This document shows positions 23,667 through 55,034 of a DNA stretch of 64,000 bases, in pieces; position 1 is the stretch's first letter, and every line of letters starts with the position of its first letter. The notes below the pieces were generated by a model, which was not told the origin of the DNA, did no database searches, and was given only the letters and a program-made list of their open reading frames with translations. A program made the translations under genes and the position numbers. The DNA comes from Planctomycetota bacterium (GTDB lineage Bacteria; Planctomycetota; JAJSAM01; JAJVHW01): assembly GCA_024280885.1 (NCBI GenBank), contig JAJRPF010000047.1:1-64000 (forward strand), read 5' to 3'.

Positions 23667-25620
23667 GGCGAACCTCCGTCGCAGCCGGTGCAGTTCCGGG
23701 TGCCCACTTGGTGGCGAATGTCAGTCGTTCCATCGTGATGGCTCCGGTCGGGCAGCGCACCGCACACAGTCCGCAGCGGATGCAGGCATCCTCGTCCTTG
23801 ACGATCGCCGACATCTCCGCGAGTTCGGCCGGCCCGAAGTGCGCGCGCAACGTCGCGGCAACCTCGGGGTCACCGACCAAGCGATCCGCCGACACCAACT
23901 CAAGGCAGGTCTCGGGACAGATGTCGGCGCAACCGCCGCAGAGGATGCACTTCTCGGAGTCGAAGATCGTATTGACCCCGCAGTCGAGGCAGCGCGACGC
24001 TTCGCGTACGGCTTCTTTGACCCCGAAGCCCGACTCGACGCTGGCCGTCTGACTCGCGCGGCGTTCTTCTACGGGCGCAGCCGGGATCTCGGTGCGCGGG
24101 AGCTTCTCGTAGCTTGCTTCGCGCTTGAAGTTGGGTATCTCGACGTGCTTGTGTGTCGTTGCTGCTACCAGCGGTGCGCCCTGCAGATGCTCTACGATGT
24201 GCCGCGCACAGCTCTTGCCGCTGGCCACCGCATCGATCAGGAGTTTCGTTCCGTAGGCAACGTCGCCCGCGACGAAGACGTCTCGTGCGGTCGTGGTGAG
24301 GATGTCGGGATCGCACTCGATGAGCCCGCGCTCGGTGACGCGCACATCGCCGTCCGGGTCGATGAACGAGAGGTCCGGGACCTGGCCGACCGACCAGATA
24401 ACCGAGTCGGCCTCGATCACGGTCTTGTCGTCGGCGTCGAATTGCGGCGCGAAGCGGCCCTGGTCGTCGAGCACGCGCAGGCACTTCTGGAACGTCACGG
24501 AGCGCACGCTTCCGTCGTCGTTACGGTCGATCGACACCGGGCCGAGGGAGGCCCGCAGCATCACGCCCTCTTCGTGGCCTTCCAGGATCTCGACGTCGTC
24601 TGCTGGCATGTCGTCGATGCTCTCGAGGCAGCAGAGATGGACGGACTCGACACTCGCCCCTCGCTCGGTCCGCTGTCGGAGCACGCTGCGCGAGATGTCG
24701 TACGAGACCTGACGAATGACCGTGCGCGAGACGTCGAACGCAACGTTGCCGCCGCCAATGACCACGACGCGACGTCCCAGATGCCGGAGGGTCGAGTCTT
24801 CGCCGTGATCGCGCAGCGCCACGTCGCGCAGAAACTCCACGCCTCCGAAGACGCCAGGGCCCTCGGAACCGGGGATGGAGACCATGCGTGAACGCTTGGC
24901 TCCGACGGCGATCAACGTCGCCGCGAACTGCGCTCGGATCTCGGCAAGAGTGATGTCCACGCCGACCTGCGTATCGCAGACAAACTCCACGCCGAGTGCG
25001 CGGATGACGTCCACTTCGCCGCGGATCACATCGCGCGGCAAGCGATATTCGGGGATGCCGACGGCCAGCATCCCGGCCGGGACCGGCTCCATCTCGAAGA
25101 TCGTGGGGCGATAGCCCTGCAGCGCGAGATCGTGAGCTGCGGCGAGGCCCGCGGGCCCGGAGCCGATGATCGCCACCTTGGGACCTGTCCGGGTGACCGG
25201 ATCGGCGATGCCAGCGGTCTTCGGGAGCGCGCTCAGTTCCTCCGCTGCGGTGCACTCCCGATCTGGCGCGTGCGCGAGCGTGCGCGACAGTGCGTCGAGC
25301 GGGTCGGCGGCGCCTGTGCCCCACGCCTCGGGGCCGTGACGCTCCGTGACGAAGCGCTTGAGCGCGCGAATAGCGACGGGTTCGTCGATGTCGCCGCGTC
25401 GGCAGGCGGATTCGCACGGCGCACCGCAGACGCGGGCACAGATGCTCGCCAATGGATTGGGCGCACGCGCGGTGAGATACGCCGCCGAGAAATCGGACGC
25501 AGCGATTGCGCGCACGTAGCCGCGCGCGTCGGTGTTGACCGGGCATGCGGCCTGGCACTTGATCTGGCGTAGCCAGTAGTCGTCGCTTGGGATCTCGACG
25601 TTCAGCTTGGGGCGTTCCAC
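23647..25620 (-). CDS. GltD-like FAD/NAD(P)-dependent oxidoreductase with C-terminal 2x[4Fe-4S] ferredoxin domain
   Basis: N-terminal Cys cluster 'CQAACPVNT...CARVCGAPCESACRRG'; 'VAIIGSGPAGLAAAHDLALQGY'; 'VVVIGGGNVAFDVSRTV'; 'CILCGGCADICPETC', 'CIRCGLCAVRCPTGAI'. Confidence 0.92.
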   Translation of the reverse strand: MERPKLNVEIPSDDYWLRQIKCQAACPVNTDARGYVRAIAASDFSAAYLTARAPNPLASICARVCGAPCESACRRGDIDEPVAIRALKRFVTERHGPEAWGTGAADPLDALSRTLAHAPDRECTAAEELSALPKTAGIADPVTRTGPKVAIIGSGPAGLAAAHDLALQGYRPTIFEMEPVPAGMLAVGIPEYRLPRDVIRGEVDVIRALGVEFVCDTQVGVDITLAEIRAQFAATLIAVGAKRSRMVSIPGSEGPGVFGGVEFLRDVALRDHGEDSTLRHLGRRVVVIGGGNVAFDVSRTVIRQVSYDISRSVLRQRTERGASVESVHLCCLESIDDMPADDVEILEGHEEGVMLRASLGPVSIDRNDDGSVRSVTFQKCLRVLDDQGRFAPQFDADDKTVIEADSVIWSVGQVPDLSFIDPDGDVRVTERGLIECDPDILTTTARDVFVAGDVAYGTKLLIDAVASGKSCARHIVEHLQGAPLVAATTHKHVEIPNFKREASYEKLPRTEIPAAPVEERRASQTASVESGFGVKEAVREASRCLDCGVNTIFDSEKCILCGGCADICPETCLELVSADRLVGDPEVAATLRAHFGPAELAEMSAIVKDEDACIRCGLCAVRCPTGAITMERLTFATKWAPGTAPAATEVRHDAGHE

Positions 25621-27044
<1,424 letters not shown>

Positions 27045-34012: not shown

Positions 34013-36349
34013 TCAGATCGTTGCGCGACGAATGCGGAGGGAGTTCAGGATGACTGAGACGGAACTGAGGCTCATCGCTCCTGCGGCGATCATCGGACTG
34101 AGCAAGACCCCGAATAGGGGATAGAAGACGCCCGCTGCGACGGGGATGCCCAGGCCGTTGTAGATGAACGCGAAGAAGAGGTTCTGGCGGATGTTCGCCA
34201 TCGTCACGCGCGAGAGCTTGCGGGCCGTGAGGATGCCGCGCAGGTTGCCCTTGACCAACGTGACGCCCGCGCTCTCCATCGCGACGTCGGTGCCCGTCCC
34301 CATGGCGATGCCGACGTCGGCCTGCGCGAGCGCCGGTGCATCGTTGATGCCGTCCCCGGCCATCGCCACGACGGAGCCCTGCGCCTGGTACTGCTTGACG
34401 ACTTCGGCCTTCTGATCCGGGAGGACGCCGGCGACGACGTCGGCAATCCCCAGTTGCGCCGCGACCACGCCCGCGGTCGTGGCATTGTCGCCGGTGAGCA
34501 TGACGATTCGCAGGCCCTCGGCGCGCAACTCTTCGATGGCCCGCGGCGTCGAGTCCTTGATCGGATCGGTCACGCCGAGCAACCCGGCGAGACGACCTTC
34601 GACGGCGACCATCATCACGGTCTGCCCCTCGCGCTGGAGAGCCTCGATCTCCGCCGCGTGCGCCGTGATGTCGGCGTCGAGATCGACCATCAAGGCCGCA
34701 TTGCCGAGGGCTACTGTGCGCCCTCCGACGCGCCCGACGACGCCCTTGCCGGTCACGGACTCGAAGTCGTCCGCGCTTCCGAACCTCAGCCCGCGGTCCT
34801 CGGCACCCGACACGATGGCCGTGGCGAGCGGATGTTCGCTTCCGCGCTCGAGAGCCCCTGCGAGAGCGAGCATCGCGTCCTCGCCGTCCGCGTCGGTTGA
34901 GATGACCGAGACCAGCCGTGGCCGCCCTTCGGTCAGCGTCCCCGTCTTGTCCACGATCAGCGTATCCACTTTGCGTACGACCTCGATCGCCTCGGCGTTC
35001 TTGAAGAGCACACCCGCCCTCGCGCCGCGTCCGGTCGACACCATGATCGACATGGGCGTCGCCAACCCGAGAGCGCACGGGCACGCGATGATCAGGACAG
35101 CGACGCCACTGACGAGCGCGTGGGCGAGCCGCGGTTCCGGGCCGACGAGGGCCCAGACCACCATGGTGAGAATCGCCGACACGATTACGGCGGGCACGAA
35201 GTACTGCGCCACCTGATCCACGAGTTTCTGGATCGGGGCGCGCGAGCGTTGGGCTTCCGCCACCATGTGCACGATCCGGCTGAGCAGCGTCTCGGAGCCG
35301 ACGCGCTCGGCGCGCATCGTGACCCCGCCGGTGCCGTTGATCGTGGCGCCGATCAACTCGTCGCCGGGCCCCTTCTCGACCGGGATCGGCTCGCCGGTGA
35401 TCATCGCCTCGTCGATCGCCGTCGTCCCGTCCACCACGCTGCCGTCCACGGGGACCTTCTCGCCCGGGCGCACGCGCAGCAGGTCGCCGACCAGGATCTC
35501 CTCGAGCGGGACGTCCTCTTCACTGCCGTCGTCGTTGATACGTCGCGCGGTCTTCGCCGCGAGTCCGAGCAATTTCTTGATCGCCGCGCCGGTCTGGCTG
35601 CGCGCGCGCAGTTCGAGGACCTGTCCGAGCAGAACCAGCGTCACGATCACACCCGCCGCTTCGAAGTAGATCTCGACGTGACCGCTTGCACGCAGCGACT
35701 CGGGGAAGATCCCCGGCGCGACGGCGGCGAGCACGCTGTAGGCGTACGCGACGCTGACGCCAAGCCCGATCAGCGTGAACATATTCAGGCTGCGGTTGCG
35801 AACCGAGGCGATCGCTCGCGTGTAGAAGGGCGCCGCGGCCCACGTACACACTGGCGTAGCGAGCAGCAACTCGGCCCACACACGCGCGTCCGGCGAGAGG
35901 AGCCTGGAGAACGGCGACCCCGGAAGCATGTCGCCCATCGCGATCACGAAGAGCGGCACGGTGAACGCCGCCGAGAAAACGAAGCGCCGACGCATGTCGA
36001 TGAACTCGGCGTCCTCGCCCTCATCTTCGAGTGGGACGCCCATCGGGTCGAGTGCCATACCGCACTTGGGGCAAGCACCAGGGCCGTCCTGCACGATCTC
36101 CGGGTGCATCGGGCAGGTGTATTGCGTGCCCGGATGCGGTGTGTCGCGCGGCGCCGTGACGACGTCGGGGGGAGCGCCTCCAAGGTATGCACTCGGATCA
36201 GCGACGAACTTCGCCAGGCAGTTGGCGGAGCAGAAGGCGAGCGTCGCGCCGTCATGCTCGTGGGTGTGCGGCGACGTTGCGTCGACGCTCATGCCACACA
36301 CGGGGTCGATTCCCGCGGGTGAGCCGTTCGGCTGGCCGGAGTCGGTCAC
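34013..36349 (-). CDS. Cu-type P1B ATPase with N-terminal YHS and heavy-metal-binding domains (CopA/SilP-like)
   Basis: '[13 protein letters not shown]' CPC, '[10 protein letters not shown]' DKTGT, '[24 protein letters not shown]'; N-terminal 'DPVCGMSVD...[10 protein letters not shown]' and '[24 protein letters not shown]'. Confidence 0.95.
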
Positions 36350-36576
36350 GTTGCCACTCCTTCGTCTGAAGCTGTCCCCGCGGCGGTGCTGCGAGGCCGC
36401 ACGCCGTCAGCGTGTCAAGTCGCGATCGCGTTGAACAAGAACACAAAGACAGATCAGAGGACGCACCGAACGCCCTCCGGCGCTGCACCGTGAGGCACAG
36501 CCCGGGGCCCTCCAGAGTTGTGGGATAGGGAGGGGAGGGAGTGTGGAGAGCGTGAAAGACGCTCGGGCGCCACTCT

Positions 36577-36606
36577 GATCTGTGTATCTGGGATCTGTGT
36601 ATCTGG
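36577..36606. repeat. Perfect 15-bp tandem duplication (GATCTGTGTATCTGG x2)
   Basis: Read directly in the sequence; intergenic. Confidence 0.9.
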
Positions 36607-36621
36607 GTGTGACGCGTCGCC

Positions 36622-36650
36622 AGACGTACGACTGCGTCAGGCGTACGTCT
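36622..36650 (-). terminator. Hairpin overlapping the stop of the 36649-37104 gene
   Basis: AGACGTACG-N11-CGTACGTCT perfect 9-bp stem. Confidence 0.45.
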
Positions 36651-37104
36651 ACTTCGCGGCGGCGGCCTTCACCTTCGCGACGAACTTCTCCGGAGTCTCC
36701 TTGAACTCCTCGAGGCAGCCTTCGCAGCAGAACTGGATCTCCTGGCCGTCGAACTCGTACGCAATCGCGTCACCCATCGAGCCACCGAGGTCTTCGTCGC
36801 TGACGACGCAGGTTTTCATCGGGTAGTCGGCCGACGGCTCGATCTTCTTCAAGCCGGGCATCGCCGCTGCTGCAGCGTCGCCCATCGCGGCCATGTCGTG
36901 TCCGCCAGCCTTGGCATGGTCGCCGTGACCAGCGCCATCGTGGTCGCCATGGCCGTCGCTCTCGCCCGCGGCCTCCTCGACGGCATCGGAGCCGTGCGCG
37001 CTGTGGTCGTGCCCGCCCTCCGGCTCCTGATCGGAGTTGCAGGCGACCAAGCCGAAGGCGAGGATACCGGCTGTCGTGAGTGAGAGGACTCGGGTGAACT
37101 TCAT
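36649..37104 (-). CDS. His-rich lipoprotein with C-terminal TRASH/YHS-like Cys domain; probable periplasmic metal-binding protein
   Basis: 'AFGLVACNSD' lipobox; 'HDHSAHG...GHGDHDGAGHGDHAKAGGHDM'; 'IQFCCEGCLEEFKETPEKFV'. Confidence 0.8.
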   Translation of the reverse strand: MKFTRVLSLTTAGILAFGLVACNSDQEPEGGHDHSAHGSDAVEEAAGESDGHGDHDGAGHGDHAKAGGHDMAAMGDAAAAAMPGLKKIEPSADYPMKTCVVSDEDLGGSMGDAIAYEFDGQEIQFCCEGCLEEFKETPEKFVAKVKAAAAK

Positions 37105-37185
37105 CGGGGATCTCCTGGTTTTGCCGAGCTCGGTCCGCGATCCGCGGTGGAGCTGGGGCGTTCATGACTCAGTCGCCCCCCGGTA

Positions 37186-37201
37186 TGCAACCTGCGTGCC
37201 A
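37186..37201 (-). promoter_or_regulatory. Consensus sigma54 -24/-12 promoter for the 36649-37104 gene
   Basis: Minus strand reads TGGCAC-GCAGG-TTGCA, an exact match to TGGCAC-N5-TTGCA, ~82 nt upstream of the ATG. Confidence 0.75.
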
Positions 37202-37231
37202 CGAAGCTCCAAGACGCGTGGGGCGGTGTAT

Positions 37232-37269
37232 TGTCGGATATGGAGTCCGGCGCTGTCTGATATGCAACA
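37232..37269. promoter_or_regulatory. Paired dyad sites (TGTCGGATATGGAGTC, TGTCTGATATGCAACA); candidate enhancer-binding sites
   Basis: Shares TGTCnnATAT core with sites at 47121-47166 and 49761-49776; lies just upstream of the sigma54 promoter. Confidence 0.55.
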
Positions 37270-37304
37270 GCGTCAGTGGCCCCGCAACGGAGGCTCACGC
37301 TGGG

Positions 37305-40300
37305 TCAGGACCGTGCTTGCGCCTGCGAGGCGTCGTCGAAATGGTCGTCACCCCAGCCCATGCGCCACTTCGTCTCCTTCACCCACGAGTACACGCAGGG
37401 CACGATGAAGAGCGCGAGCAATTCGACGATCATCCCGCCCACGGCCGGGATCGCCATCGGCTGCGCGACGTCGCTGCCAGCGCCGGTGCTCATGAGGATG
37501 GGTGTCAGTGCGATGATCGTGGTCATCGTCGTCATCAGACACGGGCGCGCGCGGCGGAGACCCGCCTCGAGGACGCGCTCCCTGATCTCCGGGATGCCCT
37601 CGGTGACCTGCTTGCGGCCGAACGTCTGTTCGAGGTAGGTGGCGATGACGACACCGTCGTCCGTCGAGATCCCGAGTAGCGCGATGAAGCCGACCACCAC
37701 GGCCACCGTGATGTAGATGGGGCCGGCGCTGGGGCGATCCGCCAAGCCGACCGTGTGGGCGAGGTCCGTCAGGTACGGATACGCCCAGATCAGGATGAGA
37801 CCGCCCGACGTGACGATGGGGGCTGCGGCGAAGACGTTGAGGACCGTCGACCAGCTCTTGAATGTCAGGTAGAGCAGGAAGAAGACCGCCAGGATGCAGA
37901 TCGGGACGAGGACCATGAACCGCTTGCGCGCGCGCTGTTGATCTTCGTAACGACCGGCGGGCAGCACCGAGACGCCCTGCGGAACCGGGTCGGGGTTGCC
38001 CATCTCGACGTTGCCTTCGCGCCACTCCTTGATGCGCGCGAGAGCCGCCTCCATCACACGGCGCTCGTCGGCGCCCGCGGTTGCGAACGTGACGTGGAGA
38101 CGCATCAGTCCGTCTTGCGTCTTCACCGCCGCCGGGCCCTTCACTTCTCTGATCGTTGCAACATCGGAGATGGGGACCTGGATGCCGCCCGCGCCCTGCA
38201 CCAGGATCGACTTGATCGACTCGATGCTGTTGCGCAGTTCGCGTGAGTATGCGACGCGGATCGGATAGCGCTCGCGGCCTTCGAGCGAGCGTGTGATCTC
38301 CATTCCACCGATCGCTGTGACGATTGTCTGCTGCACGTTCTCGAGCGTCAGCCCATAGTGTCCGACGCGATCTCGATGGATGTCGAATTCGATGTAGGGT
38401 TTCGCGCCGATGTTCTCGACGTTCGGGCCGGCGACGCCGGGTACGTCCTGGATCACGGCGCGAATGCTGCTCGCCACTTCTTCGAGCTTCGCCACCGCTG
38501 CCTTCGTATCGAGCGGCGTACCGTTCTCGTCCTGCGGCGAACCCAGCAGGCGGATCGCGAGCGGCGCGCGAATGTCGGAGTTCAGCATGATGACGCGCGT
38601 CTCGATCGGCTGCAGCCATGCGCCTGCACCCTCGGTCGCGCCGGGCGTGTGGACGACGCTGATCAACTCGGAGCGGACGTCCGCTTTCGTCATCCCCTTG
38701 CGCCACTCGGACTTCGGCTTGAGTTGCACGATGGTCTCGAGCATGCCGACCGGCGCCGGGTCCAGCGCGCTCTCGGCGCGGCCCAACTTGCCGACGACAC
38801 GGGCGACTTCGGGAACCATCATCATGGCTGCGTTCTGACGCTTCGTGACGTTGAGCGTCTCTGTGAGCCCGGCCTGCGGAAGCAACGACGGCATGTAGAG
38901 GAGCGAGCCCTCGTCGAGTGCCGGCATGAACTCCTGTCCGAGACCGGGGAAGGTGTCCTCGACCCATGCGACAGGGCGCAATTTGTCGATTCCGTCTCCG
39001 ACGACGGCACGCAGCGGACTCAGGAAGGAGACGCCTCCGATCGTCACGAGAACACCGAAGAGGAAGATCGCGAGTGGGGCGCTGAGGAACGCTGCCTTGT
39101 TCGCGAGAATCCAGCGCAGGCACTTCTCGTAGACCGTGTTCACGGTGCGACTCACGGGGTTCTCGTCGATCGGGGTTAGCCGCTCGTTCGTGAGACGCTT
39201 GATGACCCACCATGCAGCGACCGCCGCCAATGGCGCGGACAACCAGGGCTGCAATCCGAACCACTCGCCCTTCCAGGCGAGCCACGCGAACGGCAACGCG
39301 AGCGCAATCGGCGCCCAACGTGCGATCTGCACCTTCCACTCGGCTCGCTTCTCCTCGACACCGCCCTCGTCGGGTTCCTTCAGGAAGAGCCGGCACAGGA
39401 CGGGCACGACGAGCACGCCGGTGATCGCGGCGGACGAGAGGGCGAATGTCTTCGTCCACGCAAGCGGTCGGAAGAGCTTCCCCTCTGTATCAGTGAGAAA
39501 GAGGATCGGAAGGAAGGTGATGATCGTGGTCGCAATGGCGGTCGCCAGCGCGGGGGCGACTTCGAGCGCCGCGTCTTCGACGACGTCGATGGAGGGTCTT
39601 CGCCCCTTGTTCTCGACGAGCGATGTGTAGATCGTCTCCGTCATGACGATGCCCATGTCCACCATCGTCCCGATGGCAATCGCAATGCCCGTCAAGCTCA
39701 TGATGTTGCTGTCCACACCAAGTGCGTTCATGGCGATGAACGACATGAGGACCGCGATGGGCAGCGTGCTCGCGATGATCAGTGAGCTACGTAGGTGGAG
39801 GAGGAACGCGATGACGACCAGCACCGTGATCCAGAGTTCGTCGAAGAGCGCGGTCTCCAGCGTGTGGACCGTGTCATCGATCAACTGTGTCCGGTCATAG
39901 AAGGGCACGATGCGGACGCCCTCGGGCATCGCGCCGTTCGAAGGATCGTTGAGAAAGAGCACGCGTTCGCGCACCGCAGCGATCACGTCGCGCGGGTTTT
40001 CCCCGAAACGCATGACGACGATGCCGCCGGTCAGTTCCGTACGTTCGTCGGCCAAGGTGCCACGCTTGAACGCCGGGCCGATCCGCACGTCGGCCAGATC
40101 CCGTACGCGCAGCGGACGGTGGCCGAGGTCGTCATCGACCGGTTGCACCGCATTGGGCATCCCGGTTCCGCGCGGCGCGGGCATGCCCGCACCGTCCATC
40201 CCGGAACTGTCCATGCCCGGCGCCATTCCCATCCCGGAAGCGGGAACGAATCCGCCGGGAGTCGCCACGCCGACGATGACTTCTTCGATGTCGGAGACGT

Positions 40301-41030
40301 TCTTGATGAACCCGAGGCCGCGGACCACGTACTCCATCCCCGACGCTTCGATCGTCTTCGCACCGACGTCTACGTTCGCTCCGCGGATGGCGCGCACGAC
40401 GTCCATGACGCCGACGCCGTAGTGCCGCAGGCGGTTCGGGTCGACATCGACCTGGTACTCGCGCACCATGCCGCCGATGCTCGACACCTCGGCGACGCCG
40501 CGCACCGTCTGCAGGTCGTAGCGGACGATCCAATCCTGCACGCTGCGCAGCGTCGCGAGGTCGTACGGACCGTTCACCGTGTACATGAAGACTTGGCCGA
40601 GCGCGGTTGCGTCGGGACCCAGCTCGGGGACGACGCCCTCCGGCAGTTCCTTCTGCACCGACGCGAGCTTCTCAAGCACACGTGTGCGCCCTTCGTAGAA
40701 GTCGTCGATGACGCCCTTCGCGAAGAAGCGCTGCTGGTCCTCGAGGACCACGTAGATCTGGCTGAATCCGAACCCCGAGAGACCACGAACTTGCTTCACG
40801 CCGCGCACACCGGCGAGCTTCGAAGCCAGCGGGTACGTGATCTGATCCTCGACGTCCTGGGGCGATCGTCCCGGCCACTCCGTCACGACGACGGTCTGGT
40901 TCTCCGAGATGTCGGGAATCGCGTCGACCGTCTTGTTCTCCCAAGACATCCAACCCCACGCGAGCAACATCACCGTCGTGGCGAGCGTGATGAAGGGGTT
41001 GCGGATGCAGAACCGCACGAGGGCTTTCAT
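37305..41030 (-). CDS. CusA/CzcA-family heavy-metal RND efflux pump with Met-rich insertion
   Basis: 1241 aa; 'NPFITLATTVMLLAWGWMS', 'VTEWPGRSPQDVEDQITYPL', 'VDMGIVMTETIYTSL'; RND layout. Confidence 0.95.
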   Translation of the reverse strand: MKALVRFCIRNPFITLATTVMLLAWGWMSWENKTVDAIPDISENQTVVVTEWPGRSPQDVEDQITYPLASKLAGVRGVKQVRGLSGFGFSQIYVVLEDQQRFFAKGVIDDFYEGRTRVLEKLASVQKELPEGVVPELGPDATALGQVFMYTVNGPYDLATLRSVQDWIVRYDLQTVRGVAEVSSIGGMVREYQVDVDPNRLRHYGVGVMDVVRAIRGANVDVGAKTIEASGMEYVVRGLGFIKNVSDIEEVIVGVATPGGFVPASGMGMAPGMDSSGMDGAGMPAPRGTGMPNAVQPVDDDLGHRPLRVRDLADVRIGPAFKRGTLADERTELTGGIVVMRFGENPRDVIAAVRERVLFLNDPSNGAMPEGVRIVPFYDRTQLIDDTVHTLETALFDELWITVLVVIAFLLHLRSSLIIASTLPIAVLMSFIAMNALGVDSNIMSLTGIAIAIGTMVDMGIVMTETIYTSLVENKGRRPSIDVVEDAALEVAPALATAIATTIITFLPILFLTDTEGKLFRPLAWTKTFALSSAAITGVLVVPVLCRLFLKEPDEGGVEEKRAEWKVQIARWAPIALALPFAWLAWKGEWFGLQPWLSAPLAAVAAWWVIKRLTNERLTPIDENPVSRTVNTVYEKCLRWILANKAAFLSAPLAIFLFGVLVTIGGVSFLSPLRAVVGDGIDKLRPVAWVEDTFPGLGQEFMPALDEGSLLYMPSLLPQAGLTETLNVTKRQNAAMMMVPEVARVVGKLGRAESALDPAPVGMLETIVQLKPKSEWRKGMTKADVRSELISVVHTPGATEGAGAWLQPIETRVIMLNSDIRAPLAIRLLGSPQDENGTPLDTKAAVAKLEEVASSIRAVIQDVPGVAGPNVENIGAKPYIEFDIHRDRVGHYGLTLENVQQTIVTAIGGMEITRSLEGRERYPIRVAYSRELRNSIESIKSILVQGAGGIQVPISDVATIREVKGPAAVKTQDGLMRLHVTFATAGADERRVMEAALARIKEWREGNVEMGNPDPVPQGVSVLPAGRYEDQQRARKRFMVLVPICILAVFFLLYLTFKSWSTVLNVFAAAPIVTSGGLILIWAYPYLTDLAHTVGLADRPSAGPIYITVAVVVGFIALLGISTDDGVVIATYLEQTFGRKQVTEGIPEIRERVLEAGLRRARPCLMTTMTTIIALTPILMSTGAGSDVAQPMAIPAVGGMIVELLALFIVPCVYSWVKETKWRMGWGDDHFDDASQAQARS

Positions 41031-41196: not shown

Positions 41197-42783
41197 TCAG
41201 TGACCAGCGTGGGGGTCTGACGATGTGCTGCGGTTGCCTTCCGGGAACAAGAGCGAGGGCTTCCCGGCGAGTTGGGCCTGCGAGTCGAGCAACAGATTCC
41301 CCTTGCTCACGACGGCCACCCCAGCGGTGAGCCGCCGTAGCGACATGACCGCGCGCTTTTCGCCGGTCTTCGGGTCGACGACCGGTGGTGGTGGGACCAC
41401 CCCCAGCACCGGGTAGAATTCCCGGAGTGCGCCGCCGTCGTTGACGCGTGCGAGCGGGCCGACGCGAATCTGGACCGCCTCGTACCAGAGCTTCTCGGGG
41501 AGGTTGTCGGGGTCGAGCTGATAGTCCCTCGTTCGCCCCTGATCTGTGTCTTCCTCTGTGAAGAGCACATACACGAGGTTGCGCTCCCCGGTGCGTAGGA
41601 CCGACGCTCGCGGAATGGCGATCGGCAGCGACTTTGTGGTTGTGCCCGGCACCATGAGTTTGCCCTTGGCATCGAGTTCTGCGCTGACGCGGAGATCGAC
41701 GCGCTGCCCGATGCGCAGCGGGCGCAAGCCGTCTTCTCCGACCGCGTTGTCCACCTCGACGCGGACGCGCGCGGTGCGTGAGCTGCGGTCGATCGCCGGG
41801 TCGACGAATGCGACCACGCCCTCGATCGGCAACCCATGCCCGTCGGTCTCGAGCGTGACGGCCTGACCGACGCGAACCCAGGGGAGATCCGACTCGAAGA
41901 CCAGCGCTTGCACCCAGACGCGCGAGAGATCGGCGACGGTGTAAAGCGCGGCGCCCTTGCCGACCGACGCGCCTTCGAGAGCGCGACGCTCGACGACGGC
42001 GCCACCGAACGGCGCGCGTAGAACGACCGAGTCGCGCGGGACGCCGCTTTTCTCGAGCGAGGCGATTTCCTCGTCACCGACCTCGAGCAATTCCAGCCGC
42101 CGGCGGGCTGCGCGCAGCAGGGAAGAAGGCTTCAGTGAAGACCCCTCACGCGCCACGCCGCGGCTCGCGTTCCAGGCCACTAGGTACTCTTGTTCGGCCG
42201 CGTAGAGCTCCGGGGAGTAGATCGCAGCGAGCGGCTCGCCCTTCCCGACCTCCGTCCAGGTCGAGTCCACCCACACGGTCTCGAGCCAGCCGCCGACGCG
42301 TGTCGTGATCCGCGCAAGGCGCGTCTCGTCGTAGTCGACCTCGCCGACGACGCGCAGCGAGCGCACGAGCGGCAGGTTGCGCACGATGTCGGTTTCGAGG
42401 CCGATCATCTTCTGCTCGGCGGCGTTGAGCGTGCTCTCGCCGGAGACGATCGTCATGGTCATTCCGCAGACCGGGCATTTCCCGCCCTCGGGCATGTGGT
42501 CCATGACGACACAGAACATGGGGCAGGCGTAGATCGTGCCGTCGTTCTCGCCCATGCTCGAGTGGTCCATCTCTTCGGGTTGGATGAAGAGCAAGGACGA
42601 GGGGATGACGAGAATGAAGAGTGCTCCGAGCGCGAGGCCGAGCCCACACGCGAGGAGTACCCCTCCACGCGACGCGGAGCTTCGCGGCGCGGCGTTCTGG
42701 GGATCTGGCTCGGTGGGGCTTTGAGAGGGGGGGGGCGACTCGCCTGACCCACCGTTTGTCGTGTCTGTTGCGTCTTGACTCAT
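41197..42783 (-). CDS. CusB-like RND periplasmic adaptor with heavy-metal-binding domain
   Basis: 'IYACPMFCVVMDHMPEGGKCPVCGMTM'; 'TRVGGWLETVWVDSTWTEVGKGEPLAAIYSPELYAAEQEYL'. Confidence 0.93.
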   Translation of the reverse strand: MSQDATDTTNGGSGESPPPSQSPTEPDPQNAAPRSSASRGGVLLACGLGLALGALFILVIPSSLLFIQPEEMDHSSMGENDGTIYACPMFCVVMDHMPEGGKCPVCGMTMTIVSGESTLNAAEQKMIGLETDIVRNLPLVRSLRVVGEVDYDETRLARITTRVGGWLETVWVDSTWTEVGKGEPLAAIYSPELYAAEQEYLVAWNASRGVAREGSSLKPSSLLRAARRRLELLEVGDEEIASLEKSGVPRDSVVLRAPFGGAVVERRALEGASVGKGAALYTVADLSRVWVQALVFESDLPWVRVGQAVTLETDGHGLPIEGVVAFVDPAIDRSSRTARVRVEVDNAVGEDGLRPLRIGQRVDLRVSAELDAKGKLMVPGTTTKSLPIAIPRASVLRTGERNLVYVLFTEEDTDQGRTRDYQLDPDNLPEKLWYEAVQIRVGPLARVNDGGALREFYPVLGVVPPPPVVDPKTGEKRAVMSLRRLTAGVAVVSKGNLLLDSQAQLAGKPSLLFPEGNRSTSSDPHAGH

Positions 42784-42865: not shown

Positions 42866-43792
42866 CTACTTCGGATCGGCGGGCTCGCGGACAACGGTCC
42901 ACGTCTCTCGTAGCACCTTGAGCGCCGTGTCGCGCTCCGCGCCCTGCGCGTCGTTGACGGCTCGGACGGCCGCGGCCGCGTCACGCCACTTCGGGGCGAC
43001 CTCGTCGAGGAGCGCCTCCGGATTGGCGAGGAACTTCTTCCCACACATCGGGCAGCAGTGATTGACGCGGAGGCCGTTCCATTCTGAGAACGTCTTGCCG
43101 TCAGGTTCGCCGCCCATCACGGGACACTCTGAGTTGCCGACGTCAATGAGGAGCCCCTGCGCTGTCGGCGCTGTTGGCTTGCGGACGACGGTCCACTTCT
43201 TGGCCGCCTCGGCGAGGAGCGTCTGCTGTTCCGCGCCCGTGCTCGCGTCGATCGCCTTGGCTGCGTCGGCTGCTGCACGCCACTCCGGAGCAACCTCTTC
43301 GACCTTGGCCTCGGCATCCGGGGCTTCGAGGAGTTCCGCCACGCAGGCGGGGCAGCAATGGCTCACCCGGAGCCCTTTCCACTCCGAGAAGGTCTCGCCA
43401 TCCACCTCGCCGCCCATGATCGGACACAGGGTGTTGCCGAGGTCGAGGAGGACACCGGTGGGCGCGCCCGGCGCAGGCGCTCCCGTCTTCCCAGTCCCGT
43501 TCTCTGCTGTGCTGTCGCCGTGGTCGGCGTGCTCGGTGTCCTTCGACTCCGGCTTCGCCTCGGGGCCGTCCATCTGCATGTCCGGAGTGTGGCCGCCCGG
43601 CCCCTTGGCGTGGTCTCCGCCGTGCTCCGCCGAGGCGCCCGCGCCGGACATATCCATGTCGCTGTCGCCATCCACGAACATCGAACGGACGCCGAGCATC
43701 AGGGTGGCGCCGACGATGATCGAGATCACGAACGCGCGCTTGTTGGCGCGAATGACATCAGGGATCGAGGTGCTTGCAGGGGACATCATCAC
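42866..43792 (-). CDS. Membrane-anchored protein with two tandem CP[IV]MGG...HCCPxC metal-binding-like domains
   Basis: Repeat 1 'LLDLGNTLCPIMGGEVDGETFSEWKGLRVSHCCPACVAELL'; repeat 2 'LIDVGNSECPVMGGEPDGKTFSEWNGLRVNHCCPMCGKKFL'; N-terminal TM and His/Met-rich linker. Confidence 0.85.
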   Translation of the reverse strand: MMMSPASTSIPDVIRANKRAFVISIIVGATLMLGVRSMFVDGDSDMDMSGAGASAEHGGDHAKGPGGHTPDMQMDGPEAKPESKDTEHADHGDSTAENGTGKTGAPAPGAPTGVLLDLGNTLCPIMGGEVDGETFSEWKGLRVSHCCPACVAELLEAPDAEAKVEEVAPEWRAAADAAKAIDASTGAEQQTLLAEAAKKWTVVRKPTAPTAQGLLIDVGNSECPVMGGEPDGKTFSEWNGLRVNHCCPMCGKKFLANPEALLDEVAPKWRDAAAAVRAVNDAQGAERDTALKVLRETWTVVREPADPK

Positions 43793-45381
43793 TTCCTGTC
43801 AGAGATCTTCACACCCACGGCGCGCAGCAAAGTTGCGTGAGCGCGGACGAGGTTGCGACGTGCGTCTGCCAGCCCCAGGCGGGCGTCGAGCAGACGGTGA
43901 ACGGCGTCGAGAAGATCGAGATAACCGGTGCGGTTGCCCTCGTAGGCGCCGCGGGCGGCGTCGAGCGAGTCGCGGGCCAGCGGGACGAGTTCTCGCTCGT
44001 GCACGCCGACGCGTTGCGTCGCGGCATCCACTCCGAAGAGCGCGGCGCGCGTCTTGGTACGTACCTGGTCGCGAAGTGCGTCCCGCGCCTCGCTCATGGA
44101 CACGGCGCGAGACCGCATCTCCTGGACCTGCGCTTCGCGCACACCGAAATCGGAGCGCGGCATCACCATTCTGCCGGGTGCAGGGAAGACAGCGCCGCGC
44201 TGGATACCGGCTTCGCCCGCGCGCTCTCGCTCGAAGCGAGAAGAGCCGACGTCCATGCGCGGGAGCACCATCGTCTCGGCCAGCCGGACTCCCAATTCCG
44301 CGCGCTCTGCGGCGAGGCGTGCGGTGCGGAGTTCCTGGCTCTCGATGATGGCTTGCTTGATGACTTGCGGTTCCGCCTCACGCGAGGGTGCCGAGGCGGG
44401 CACCTCCGGCTCTTCGCCGAGTGCGACTTCTGCCGCCTCAGGGCGCGAAAGCAGTTGGTTCCACTGTGCGCGAACGACGGTCTCCTGCCGATCGAGAATG
44501 TCGAGTTCCGTCTTCAGGCGTTCGAGCCGTGACTCGAACGCGAGGAAGCCTGCCTGGCTACCGGTGCCCGACTCGAGGCGTGACCGAAGCACTTCGAGCA
44601 GGACGGCATCGAGCTCGACTTCCTCGCGCACGATCTTGCGCGCCTCGAAGAGCCGCGCAGCGTCGCTGTGCGCATTCCACGCTCGGGCGACCATGTCGCG
44701 CACCGTTGTGCGCAGCGACTCGAATGCCATCTCTGTCGTGCGCTTCGCCACCTCGGCGGAGATGCCGTTCACGTCTGGTGACGGCGCGATCATCTCCGTG
44801 GACCGGCGACTCCGCTCGGGTCCGACGCGCGTCTCTGTGTCGCGAACGAACGAGCGATAGATCTGGATGAGATCGCCCAGGTCCTCGGACTGTGTGAACG
44901 TGGTCCGGGCTGCTTCGTAGCGGGCCCGCGCCTTGCGCACGGCGGGCGATCGCAGCACGGCCAGCGCGGCTAGATCCCCAACCGGCAGAGGCGCTGCCAG
45001 AAGCGTGGCCAGGGCGTTCTCGTCTTCCACCGTGCGCTCGAGCTCTGCAAGGCGCGCGTCCGGAACATCGACGAGGCCGCGCCACTCATCTGCTCGCGTC
45101 TTGGCGGGCAGCTGAGCCGCGACTTCCACAGGTTCTGCGCCGGGGAGCGGGACACTGGCGGAGGCGTTGATCGTCGCCGACATTGCGTCATCAACCGGCT
45201 GGCTCGTGTGAGCGGGACCGCGCTCGGCACGGGCCACCATGCGCGTGGCGAATTCGAGGTTCGCAGGAGGCGCGACCGGCGGCGCCGAGCAGGCGCTCGG
45301 GAGCACGGCGGCCGTCAGGCCAAGCGCTGTCAGGCCGAGTGCAGCGGCGCGGCGCACGCGAGCGTGTTGTGGGGCGCTCAT
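43789..45381 (-). CDS. TolC-family outer-membrane efflux protein (second of pair)
   Basis: Coiled-coil organisation; N-terminal lipobox-like 'LPSACSA'; ATGA overlaps with both neighbours. Confidence 0.85.
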   Translation of the reverse strand: MSAPQHARVRRAAALGLTALGLTAAVLPSACSAPPVAPPANLEFATRMVARAERGPAHTSQPVDDAMSATINASASVPLPGAEPVEVAAQLPAKTRADEWRGLVDVPDARLAELERTVEDENALATLLAAPLPVGDLAALAVLRSPAVRKARARYEAARTTFTQSEDLGDLIQIYRSFVRDTETRVGPERSRRSTEMIAPSPDVNGISAEVAKRTTEMAFESLRTTVRDMVARAWNAHSDAARLFEARKIVREEVELDAVLLEVLRSRLESGTGSQAGFLAFESRLERLKTELDILDRQETVVRAQWNQLLSRPEAAEVALGEEPEVPASAPSREAEPQVIKQAIIESQELRTARLAAERAELGVRLAETMVLPRMDVGSSRFERERAGEAGIQRGAVFPAPGRMVMPRSDFGVREAQVQEMRSRAVSMSEARDALRDQVRTKTRAALFGVDAATQRVGVHERELVPLARDSLDAARGAYEGNRTGYLDLLDAVHRLLDARLGLADARRNLVRAHATLLRAVGVKISDRK

Positions 45382-46847
45382 CGCTCCTCCTCCGTGTTCG
45401 TCTCATCCTCTGGGAGTGCGCCTGCATCGGTGCCCGTACCTGTGGGCGTGGCTGCCAGCGCATCGAAGGGCTGACCGATGGCGCGCTCCAGTTGTGCGAT
45501 GGCGCGACCGTGATCAGCGCGCGCGCGCGCTGAAGCGAGGCGGAAGTTGTGGTACACCGCGATGGTCTCCAGCACGCCGCCAAGCGTCCCCTTGCCGTTC
45601 GCGAGGAGATCCTCGGCCGTGCGCGCGGCGATGGCTGCCCGTGGCACGAGAACTTCGGCGTAGAGGCGATGCAGACGATCGGCGTTGCCGACCTGGAACC
45701 ATGCCCGCGCCACTCGGTCTCGGGTCCGCTGGATTGCGTCGAGGCGTTCGAGTGCCGCCGCGCGCTCGAGAGAACGCGAGCGCCGGATGATGGCAGCGTC
45801 CTTCTGCACCCAGATAGGCAACGTCAGTCCGAACTGCAGGATGAGCGGGTCGTCGCCGTTCCCAGAAGGGTCCACCCCCAGCGAGGAAGGCAGGCGACTG
45901 GTGCTGACTTTCGTCACGCCGACCGACATGTCGGGAATGTGGACCTGACCGGCGAGCGAGGCCCTGAGACGCGCTGTCTCGAGAGCGAGACCGGCCTCGC
46001 GCAACTCCTGATTGTGGCCCTCGGCGATCGTGAGCAGTTCCGCGACCGACGACTGCACGTCGGGCAGCATGTCGGTTACGGGCGTGCCGATCGGCGTCTC
46101 TGGCGGCAGGTCGAGCAGCGAGCGCATGCGTTGCGCCTCGACGAAGCGCAACTCGGCGAGGATCACGCGGTCGTTCTCGAGCTGTGCGCGTTGCGTATCG
46201 GCGCGGAAGAGTTCCGAGACCAGCGAACTCGTTTCGCCGGCTGCTGCGGCGGTGGTGTAGCGCTCGAGGACGGCACCGATGTCGCCCGTGATCGCGATCG
46301 CCTCGTCGATGTAGGCGATCTCGTGGGCGACGCGGACGACTTCGACGAGGACGTCGCGGGTCATGCGTTCGTAGACGATGCGCATGCGTTGTGCGTCGCT
46401 GTCGGCGATGTCGGTCTGCGTACTGAGCTTCGTCGGGAACGGGATCTTCTGCTGGACGCCGACCGACCATTGCTGCGATCCGACGCGGGTCTCGACCTCG
46501 GTCTCGTACCACCCGATCATCACAGTCGGGTTGGGCAGCCAGCCTTCGATCGCCACGCTCTCGCCCGCAGCTCTCGCGCGAGCCTCTGCCGCCTGGATGA
46601 CGGGGCTGCGTTGCAGCGCGATCCGGAGCAGATCGGCCAACCTGGGCGCTTGCGAGAGATCCGGGATCGGCTCGGGTTCGTGGCCCGGACCGTCCTGGCT
46701 CTCTGCTCCCACAAGGGTACCGGTGCTCTCCGGGGGCCCGGATGCCGGAACGTGTTTGAGCTCCGCCTTCTCTTGCGCACACGCGGCGAGCAGCGGGAGA
46801 AGGAGGAGCGACGGCAGAAGCGTGCGGCGGACTAAAGCGGTGTGCAT
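45378..46847 (-). CDS. TolC-family outer-membrane efflux lipoprotein (first of pair)
   Basis: 'LLLLPLLAACAQ' lipobox; 'LADLLRIALQRSPVIQAAEARARAAGESVAIEGWLPNPTVMIGW'. Confidence 0.88.
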   Translation of the reverse strand: MHTALVRRTLLPSLLLLPLLAACAQEKAELKHVPASGPPESTGTLVGAESQDGPGHEPEPIPDLSQAPRLADLLRIALQRSPVIQAAEARARAAGESVAIEGWLPNPTVMIGWYETEVETRVGSQQWSVGVQQKIPFPTKLSTQTDIADSDAQRMRIVYERMTRDVLVEVVRVAHEIAYIDEAIAITGDIGAVLERYTTAAAAGETSSLVSELFRADTQRAQLENDRVILAELRFVEAQRMRSLLDLPPETPIGTPVTDMLPDVQSSVAELLTIAEGHNQELREAGLALETARLRASLAGQVHIPDMSVGVTKVSTSRLPSSLGVDPSGNGDDPLILQFGLTLPIWVQKDAAIIRRSRSLERAAALERLDAIQRTRDRVARAWFQVGNADRLHRLYAEVLVPRAAIAARTAEDLLANGKGTLGGVLETIAVYHNFRLASARARADHGRAIAQLERAIGQPFDALAATPTGTGTDAGALPEDETNTEEER

Positions 46848-47120
46848 CGGGGATCTCCATCGCATGGCGCGTGCCAGCGAGCGTGTCACCCTAGGCGCGC
46901 GGCCGGAAAACCCCGCGGCACCTGTGACCGTGCGGCATGCCGGTCGCCGTGCGGCGCACCCCACCGCGCCAGGGCAGGCCGTCTGCCGCGGCTGCCAGGC
47001 TCGGAGACTCCCCCGAGTCGAGGCGCCTGTCACCCACTACAGCCGTCCCAGCCGGACACGTCCGGCATCCACAGGGGTTTCCGGCCGCACCCCTAGCGCG
47101 CTGCGGTCGAGGCGGCTATC

Positions 47121-47166
47121 TGTCGGATATCGGACAACCCGGAGCCTAGGTGCCGGATATCCCACA
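47121..47166. promoter_or_regulatory. Paired dyad sites (TGTCGGATATCGGACA, TGCCGGATATCCCACA) upstream of the efflux operon
   Basis: 30-nt start-to-start spacing; same core as 37232-37269 and 49761-49776. Confidence 0.55.
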
Positions 47167-47173
47167 CCGTCGT

Positions 47174-48271
47174 TCAGGCCTCCGGGAGGACAACGCGAAA
47201 CGTCGAACCCGAGGCTCCCGTCGAAGCGACTTCGAGGCTGCCGCGCATGCTCGTCGCCAGTCGAACCGCGACCGCCAGTCCAAGGCCTGTGCCCTCGCTA
47301 CGACCGGTCACGTACGCGTCGAAGAGCGAGTCTCTCATTTCCGTGGGGACGCCGGGACCGCGGTCCTCGACATCCACGACGACGCGCTCCGTCTCGATCC
47401 GCGCGCTCACGCGGATCAGACCGCCGTCGGATTGCACTTGCACGGCGTTGAGCATCAGATTGAGCAGGATCTGGCGTAACAGCGATTCGTCGGCGCGCAC
47501 CACCACGTCGGGCGCGACGGCGTTCTCGCACACGATCTCTCGTCGCTTCGCTTCGGGGCGCAGGAGCAGGAAGACGGCCGCGGTGAGATCGTGGAGCGCG
47601 ACGGAGGAGACGTCTGGCTTCGGGGGCCTTGCGAACTCCAGGAAATTGGCGACGACGCTATCCAATCGAGCCACTTCCGATTCGAGGAGCGCACCGAATT
47701 CCTCGGCCACCTCGCGCGGAGAGTCCTCGCGGCGCAAGACCTCGGCGGCACCCTGGATGCCGCTCAGAGGATTGCGGATTTCGTGTGCCATCCCGGCAGC
47801 GAGCTCGCCCATCGCGCGCAGGCGCTCCCCGCGTCGGAGCGTCTCTTCGGCACGCAGGAGAGCGCGCGCGTTCGTCTCGAGGTCGCGGGAGTGACGCCGT
47901 GCCTGTGCGAGAGCGTTGGCGCTGCGCTGCGAGAGGACGGATGTCACGGCTGTGACGACGTTGTAGAGCACGATATCGCCCACCCAGAGCGTGTTGTGTG
48001 CGTGTCCCGATAGGCCGCCGAAGAGATGCCAGAAGTAGACGACGCTGGTCAGCGCGCTCCACGTCAACGCGGGCCGTGGCGGGAACCACAATCCGGCGAG
48101 AATGAGCGGCACAAAGGTTGCCTTGAAGAGCAGGTCGTGCACGGCTACGGCGTGCACGTCGGTGGCGAAGTGGAACGCCGTCAACGTCGCGATCATGATG
48201 GCGATGATCGCGTGATGCCGCGCGTCGGAGCGGCGCTGGAGTACTCCGGACGCGTGCGCCTCGTCCGTCAC
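47174..48271 (-). CDS. Sensor histidine kinase
   Basis: H-box 'GELAAGMAHEIRNPLSGIQGAAEVL'; 'EDRGPGVPTEMRDSLFDAYVTGRSEGTGLGLAVAVRLA'; TM helices. Confidence 0.92.
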   Translation of the reverse strand: MTDEAHASGVLQRRSDARHHAIIAIMIATLTAFHFATDVHAVAVHDLLFKATFVPLILAGLWFPPRPALTWSALTSVVYFWHLFGGLSGHAHNTLWVGDIVLYNVVTAVTSVLSQRSANALAQARRHSRDLETNARALLRAEETLRRGERLRAMGELAAGMAHEIRNPLSGIQGAAEVLRREDSPREVAEEFGALLESEVARLDSVVANFLEFARPPKPDVSSVALHDLTAAVFLLLRPEAKRREIVCENAVAPDVVVRADESLLRQILLNLMLNAVQVQSDGGLIRVSARIETERVVVDVEDRGPGVPTEMRDSLFDAYVTGRSEGTGLGLAVAVRLATSMRGSLEVASTGASGSTFRVVLPEA

Positions 48272-49698
48272 GGGGTCGCTTCTCCGCGCGACTCTGGCGG
48301 CACCTCGATCGTGTACTTCTGCAGTCGATAGAGCAGCGCTTGGCGAGAGATGCCGAGGAGTCGCGCCGCGCGCGAACGGTTGCCGGATGTGTGATCGAGA
48401 GCGCGGAGGATCCAGCCGCGCTCGATGATCGCAAGGTCCACGCCGTCGTCCGGAAACGGACCGTCAGAGAGCACAGGCTGGGGGGCATTCTTCACGTCGT
48501 CTGGGAGGTCGGTCTCAGCCAGAACGTCGTCGGCACAGCCAAGTACCACCGCGCGCTCCATGACGTTTTCCAGCTCTCGGACGTTTCCGCGCCATGGGTA
48601 GCGACTGAGGATTGCCGCCGCCTCCGGAGTGATCCGGATCGGCCGCCCGGCCGCCTTCGCAGCGAAGTGCTCGGCGAGGAGACCGACGTCGGCCCCACGC
48701 TCCCGCAGCGGTGGTAGACGCACAGGAACCACCGCGATCCGGTAGTAGAGATCGCTGCGGAAGTCGCCTTCGTCCATTGCGGCGACGAGGTTGCGATTGG
48801 TGGCGGCCACCACGCGAACGTCGATGGGGATCGTGGTCTCGGCGCCGACGCGACGGATCCGGCGATCGGTCAGGACACGCAGGAGTGTGACCTGCGCCGC
48901 GGGCGGGATCTCGCCGATCTCGTCGAGGAAGAGCGTGCCTCCATCGGCTTGCTCGAAGTATCCGCGATGTACGCGTCCGGCGCCGGTGAACGCGCCCTTC
49001 TCATGCCCGAAGAGTTCGGACTCGAGCAATTCGCTCGGGATCGCGCCGCAGTTGACGGGCACGAGCGGCCCTGCCGAACGGTGGCCTTCGAAGTGGAGCG
49101 CGCGCGCCACGAGTTCCTTGCCGGTGCCGCTCTCGCCTTCGATCAGGACGGTGGCGTCCACGTCCTTCAGGCGGTCCATCGTCGCGAAGACGGATCGGAT
49201 CGCCGTGCTCTCGCCGATGATCCCCGCGAACGTGTGGCGGGTCTTCAGCGTCGCGCGTAGAGCGCGGTTCTCACGCGTGAGTGCCGCGCGGTCGAGCTCC
49301 TTGGCGACCACGACCAGCATCTCGTCCCACGACACCGGCTTCGTGACGTAATCGGCGACGCCCTGGCGCATGGCATCGACGGCGCTTCGGACTGTGCCGT
49401 GGCCGGTCATCACGATCACCGGCATGCCCGGCTCGCGACGGAGGATCTCGGTGACCAACTCTTCGCCGGAGACGCCGGGCATGCGCAGGTCGGTGATCAC
49501 GAGATCGGGCGCGATGCGGCCGAACGCTTCGAGCCCCGCGTCGCCATCGTCGGCGAGTTCGACATCGTAGCCAGCCTCGCGGAGGCGGAACTCCGCGATA
49601 CGTCGGAGGGTGGCGTCGTCCTCCACAACGAGGATCCGTCGCTGGAGCGGCTCGGGTTGGTCTTCCATTGCAGCCGCCATCATGGGCACGCGGCGCAC
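48268..49698 (-). CDS. NtrC-family sigma54-dependent response regulator (likely metal-responsive, ZraR-like position)
   Basis: Receiver domain, '[18 protein letters not shown]', '[11 protein letters not shown]', Fis-type HTH; start may be 49668. Confidence 0.94.
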
Positions 49699-49760: not shown

Positions 49761-49776
49761 TGTCTCATATCGGGCA
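49761..49776. promoter_or_regulatory. Single dyad site TGTCTCATATCGGGCA upstream of the regulator gene
   Basis: Matches the shared TGTCnnATATnnnnCA core. Confidence 0.45.
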
Positions 49777-49959
49777 GCCGCTGTGGCATTACCGACAGCA
49801 CGCGTCCAGCGACGGCGTGCTCGACACCGCGCGTGCGCCGATGTCGAGCGCGGCGCGCTTGCGACGCGCCGCGGCTACCGCTCGGCACGGATCTTGCCAC
49901 AGAACTCCGCGCGCGCAGTCCCGCGGCACCCATGCCCCAGATCCTGTGTGCAACGCACC

Positions 49960-53600: not shown

Positions 53601-53610
<10 letters not shown>
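51964..53610 (+). CDS. Sensor histidine kinase with extracytoplasmic sensor domain
   Basis: '[26 protein letters not shown]'; '[39 protein letters not shown]'; two TM segments. Confidence 0.93.

Positions 53611-55034
<1,424 letters not shown>

Follow-up and report, generated by a model that had tools for sequence, protein, structure and literature searches.

A predicted sigma54-dependent metal regulon, most likely for copper or silver, joining an NtrC-type regulator to a Cus-type efflux operon and a YHS/TRASH-like lipoprotein in a planctomycetotal genome

The 64-kb stretch of DNA analysed here (hereafter the window) comes from a bacterium of the phylum Planctomycetota and carries, on its minus strand, genes for an NtrC-family response regulator and a sensor histidine kinase, an adjacent Cus-type efflux operon (46847-37305), a small lipoprotein and a copper-type P1B ATPase (Table 1). 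The lipoprotein gene follows the pump gene in the same orientation. Its product had been described beforehand, from the letters of the sequence, as a His-rich lipoprotein, and the open reading frame agrees with this: it encodes 151 amino acids with an LVAC lipobox, eight His residues and Cys residues at positions 99, 126, 127 and 130, a Cys pattern shared by each of the eight homologues aligned. With the Pfam YHS model the protein scores 29.2 bits, just below the gathering score of 30.3; Pfam returned YHS/TRASH only and NCBIfam nothing, and no ZraP-family match was obtained. The product of 42866-43792, which also combines an N-terminal membrane segment with a His/Met-rich linker, is encoded in the efflux operons of related genomes too and has no match in Pfam or NCBIfam.

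Table 1. Genes and predicted regulatory sites of the window (G numbers denote related genomes, see text)
Feature	Position	Strand	Remarks
Copper-type P1B ATPase	34013-36349	minus	HMBD and YHS domains, CPC, DKTGT; TIGR01511 587.5 bits (cut-off 397)
Lipoprotein	36649-37104	minus	signal peptide with LVAC lipobox, His-rich linker, C-terminal YHS/TRASH-like domain (C-x26-CC-x2-C)
Sigma54 -24/-12 promoter TGGCACGCAGGTTGCA	37186-37201	minus	lipoprotein gene; box retained before the orthologous gene in G006, G001, G002, G008
Promoter-proximal half-site TGTCGGATATGGAGTC	37232-37247	.	centred near -64 and 22 nt away from the 37254 site; 6.1 bits
Activator palindrome TGTCTGATATGCAACA	37254-37269	.	centred near -86 relative to the predicted start; 20.2 bits, second-best site in the window
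CusA/CzcA-family RND pump	37305-41030	minus	TIGR00914 754.8 bits (cut-off 701.45, passed)
CusB-like periplasmic adaptor	41197-42783	minus	N-terminal metal-binding motif; PF16576 9.5e-63
Membrane-anchored double-TRASH-like protein	42866-43792	minus	two CP[IV]MGG...HCC..C repeats; homologues in G005, G006, G008
Outer-membrane efflux protein 2	43789-45381	minus	PF02321
Outer-membrane efflux lipoprotein 1 (OEP1)	45378-46847	minus	first efflux-operon gene; ATG 46847 start set by signal peptide/lipobox
Second sigma54 site TGGCACGCGCCATGCG	46861-46876	minus	OEP1 start codon 13 nt downstream; likewise placed in G006, G004, G005
Palindrome TGTCGGATATCGGACA	47121-47136	.	upstream of efflux operon; rank 1 in window
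Palindrome TGCCGGATATCCCACA	47151-47166	.	upstream of efflux operon; rank 3 in window
Sensor histidine kinase	47174-48271	minus	short membrane sensor domain with three invariant His
NtrC-family response regulator	48268-49698	minus	REC, sigma54 AAA+ with GAFTGA, Fis HTH with RQALLYR
Palindrome TGTCTCATATCGGGCA	49761-49776	.	upstream of regulator gene; rank 5 in window
Palindrome TGTGGCATTACCGACA	49782-49797	.	upstream of regulator gene; rank 4 in window

Upstream of the lipoprotein gene, the preliminary description had recognized an exact -24/-12 element on the minus strand (37201-37186) and two dyads about 30-70 nt further upstream. The promoter element holds: TGGCACGCAGGTTGCA has no mismatch to the sigma54 consensus TGGCACGNNNNTTGCW (as tested, TGGCACG-N4-TTGCW, with GG and GC) and is the sole match at one mismatch or fewer within the window, where shuffling gave a mean of 0.40 such matches. 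The predicted +1 is at 37175, leaving a leader of 71 nt, and the genome contains a gene for sigma54 (RpoN; PF04552, 201.5 bits). Exact matches number two in the 6.3 Mb of the genome; at one mismatch or fewer, 24+19 boxes compare with 46+48 for a reversed-pattern control. Because this count does not exceed the control, the box by itself is weak evidence, and the case therefore rests on position and conservation. As for the dyads, both 16-mers lie where they had been placed, 31-68 nt upstream of the box, but only that at 37254-37269 is a good palindrome; the 37232-37247 element keeps one half and, at 6.1 bits against a matrix from related genomes, is better termed a half-site.

This matrix, which represents the 16-bp palindrome TGTSSSAWWTSSSACA, was trained only on sites from related genomes and on none from the window. 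Its five best sites in the 64 kb are, in order, those at 47121, 37254, 47151, 49782 and 49761, all intergenic, and the five window sites at 14 bits or more compare with 0.45 expected by simulation. The palindromes precede the efflux operon, the lipoprotein gene and the NtrC-type regulator gene as pairs or parts of pairs, with centres 21, 22 or 30 nt apart, near whole helical turns, as expected for an enhancer-binding protein. Those of the efflux operon sit approximately 280-310 nt from its promoter.

The regulator encoded at 48268-49698 had been singled out as the natural candidate to bind these sites, a choice supported by its REC, AAA+ (GAFTGA) and Fis HTH domains and by palindromes of this motif upstream of both its own gene and the adjoining efflux operon; regulator gene, kinase gene and efflux operon are adjacent and carry palindromes. 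Its recognition helix, RQALLYR, conforms to the RQ[AT]L[LI]YR of orthologues found beside Cus-type operons; sites and recognition helix are co-conserved between the regulator and its cus-linked orthologues. Five other sigma54 activators encoded in this genome, including two from the window, have helices unlike this pattern. These two, at about 25540-27039 and 53607-54995, are likewise of the NtrC type and contain GAFTGA. In the sensor region of the kinase the three His are invariant in seven homologues, and this three-His membrane sensor is plausibly a metal-sensing feature. The regulator falls below the cut-off of the ZraR equivalog NF007689 (379.4 vs 760 bits), and the kinase does not reach that of ZraS.

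Relatives of the regulator in named genomes are 38-48% identical, and none has an adjoining Cus cluster. Since they are thus distant and without this cluster, our comparison rests on nine related genomes of the same small class, among them G006 (same genus as the window), G004 and G005 (same family) and G001, G002 and G008 (same order, other families). In G006 the gene order is that of the window; its lipoprotein gene is preceded by TGGCACGCCACTTGTG and its efflux operon by TGGCACGCTCGATGCG, and both sites upstream of the lipoprotein gene fit the palindrome, likewise 22 nt apart. A sigma54 box precedes the efflux operon in G004 and G005 and the lipoprotein gene in G001, G002 and G008. The lipoprotein gene and/or efflux operon occurs with a kinase-regulator pair, box and palindromes in G006, G004, G005, G001 and G008 as well. 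Overall, related genomes of three families have the box together with the palindrome in front of the lipoprotein gene, the adjoining efflux operon or both. Within 250 nt upstream of the first genes, an exact GGCACG-N5-TGC was found in 9 of 12 cases, with about 0.009 expected per region; the binomial value of 1e-16 overstates the significance, as the pattern was fixed after the sites had been seen, although the excess itself is not in doubt. No clear sigma54 box was seen before the lipoprotein gene of G004 (two copies), nor before the regulator and ATPase genes of the window. The proposal that promoter and dyads control the lipoprotein gene is thus strengthened by an arrangement conserved before orthologues in other genera and families and by the sigma54 of the genome, but the predicted targets extend beyond the lipoprotein. 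In G008 the YHS/TRASH-like lipoprotein has 11 matches, of which two are divergent from kinase-regulator pairs of the 48268 type (L113, L114, L116, L117, L118).

The sigma54 box of the efflux operon lies unusually close to the first gene: the distance from box to start codon is 13 nt in the window, 12 in G006, 12 in G004 and 11 in G005, so that in four genomes of three genera (related loci L112, L115 and L193) the start codon stands 1-3 nt past the predicted +1. A GGAG precedes the start codon in the window and in G006 but would fall outside the sigma54 transcript, and G004 and G005 have no GGAG-like motif before the start. Either the sigma54 mRNA of this operon would be near-leaderless, or an upstream promoter contributes too. 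A fixed design in which sigma54 activation is coupled to leaderless translation can be put forward only tentatively, and we lean somewhat against it. The four first genes begin with ATG, ATG, GTG and GTG, and the two GTG starts count against the leaderless reading, since all 171 leaderless mRNAs in a start-site map of Sinorhizobium begin with AUG (PMC3616915). If real, the near-leaderless start would link sigma54 control to translation in an uncommon way.

Beyond the window, sites within one mismatch of the palindrome consensus were considered throughout the genome. One of them, TGTCGCAAATCCGACA (C73:68527), lies about 64 nt upstream of a box, TGGTACGGTTCTTGCA, and precedes another adaptor-RND operon on a different contig (L156:10528-12258). 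No NtrC-type gene was found near this operon in the 32 kb examined, which matches the prediction for a trans-acting regulator; the operon is likely controlled in trans and probably belongs to the same regulon. The palindromes at C1:19256, C50:29809, C23:99261 and C9:41095 were not counted as part of it; among them are sites that have no sigma54 box or metal operon close by and sites that lie inside ORFs. On contig C1, a strong palindrome (L158:7257-7272; 20.2 bits) has no sigma54 box nearby; it immediately follows a gene whose product carries a heavy-metal-binding motif at its C terminus, and it precedes a P-type ATPase gene by 2.2 kb. In G067, from another family of the phylum, a TGTCGCAATTCCCGACA dyad shortly before a CGGCACGGTGATTGCT box (L200:1503-1555) lies upstream of a membrane-protein gene, perhaps flagellar (FliO-like), with no metal gene there.

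We consider it highly probable that the locus encodes a metal-responsive sigma54 regulon, with copper or silver as the most likely signal, in which the NtrC-type regulator and its kinase drive the lipoprotein gene and the Cus-type efflux operon. As predicted, this single regulon comprises the regulator and kinase genes (49698-47174), the efflux operon (46847-37305) and the YHS/TRASH-like lipoprotein gene (37104-36649). The membrane kinase would sense metal in the membrane or periplasm and phosphorylate the regulator, which would then bind the palindromes, usually paired two or three helical turns apart, and drive RNA polymerase-sigma54 at the -24/-12 promoters of the lipoprotein gene and the efflux operon. 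The palindromes before the regulator's own gene suggest autoregulation. The lipoprotein may act as a periplasmic metal binder, probably buffering the metal or handing it on.

Other explanations touch different parts of this scheme. The -24/-12 match might be fortuitous, in which case a housekeeping promoter, or readthrough from the pump gene, would account for expression of the lipoprotein gene, and a repressor would occupy the palindromes. Boxes are indeed no commoner genome-wide than the reversed control, and the position of the lipoprotein gene after the pump gene would permit readthrough; chance is rejected on conservation only, namely the position-specific retention of the box across six related genomes. 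With no sigma70-like promoter found in 36300-37320, and with the regulator that adjoins the palindromes being a sigma54 activator, we regard this explanation as scarcely credible. That the sigma54 promoter is genuine but another activator occupies the palindromes seems to us very improbable: the genome has at least nine relatives, and both other NtrC-type regulators in the window (at about 25540-27039 and 53607-54995) possess REC and AAA+ domains with GAFTGA, but their recognition helices differ, and the palindromes precede the 48268 regulator's own gene and the operon next to it, a pairing kept in other genera.

The identity of the metal is a separate question. A regulon mainly for zinc, lead or cadmium, of the ZraSR/Czc kind, would be compatible with the presence of ZraR and ZraS models among the matches, with an RND model that spans both CusA and CzcA, and with an ATPase that also passes the cadmium-family cut-off. 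This ATPase nevertheless fits the copper model much better than the cadmium one (587.5 vs 387.8 bits), and YHS/TRASH domains are associated with copper ATPases (PMC4626032). We therefore hold a zinc, lead or cadmium regulon to be unlikely, and the ATPase scores and the domain company favour copper or silver, an assignment drawn from family names only.

The copper/silver regulon proposed here, with its defined predicted binding motif, offers a testable case of a sigma54 metal response in a poorly sampled bacterial class. It also ties an uncharacterised family of His-rich YHS/TRASH-like lipoproteins, together with a double-TRASH protein, to Cus-type efflux.

The closest known systems are CorSR/curA of Myxococcus xanthus and ZraSR/ZraP of Escherichia coli. 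In E. coli, the NtrC-type regulator and kinase of ZraSR control the small periplasmic metal-binding protein ZraP from a sigma54 promoter. The window resembles this system in a regulator-kinase pair that matches the ZraR and ZraS models and in a small, here predicted, metal-binding protein; it differs in that the pair stays below the equivalog cut-offs, the lipoprotein has no ZraP match and the putative targets include an RND pump. With CusCFBA and CzcCBA the efflux operon shares a CusA/CzcA-family pump, a CusB-like adaptor and a TolC-like outer-membrane protein, but it has two outer-membrane proteins and adds the double-TRASH protein. The cus genes of E. coli are controlled by the OmpR-type CusR and not by a sigma54 activator. 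CorSR/curA is an experimentally studied copper regulon in which the response regulator of a two-component system interacts with sigma54, has REC, AAA+ and Fis HTH domains and acts on copper genes (PMC3707914). Those genes encode, among others, a P1B ATPase that contains a YHS domain, lipoproteins and a secreted His-rich protein, and the cluster holds several putative sigma54 promoters (PMC3707914); the gene content of the window is comparable. By contrast, curA has a multicopper oxidase and no RND pump, CorS has a periplasmic sensor domain where the window kinase has a short His-containing membrane sensor, and the sections of the account cited here do not mention the palindrome (PMC3707914). 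In a recent survey of sigma54 regulons, regulators of the ZraR type with potential sigma54 promoters are reported from several phyla (PMC12316311). The kind of switch is thus already known, and to it the system predicted in the window adds a palindrome, a pump and a lipoprotein family of its own.
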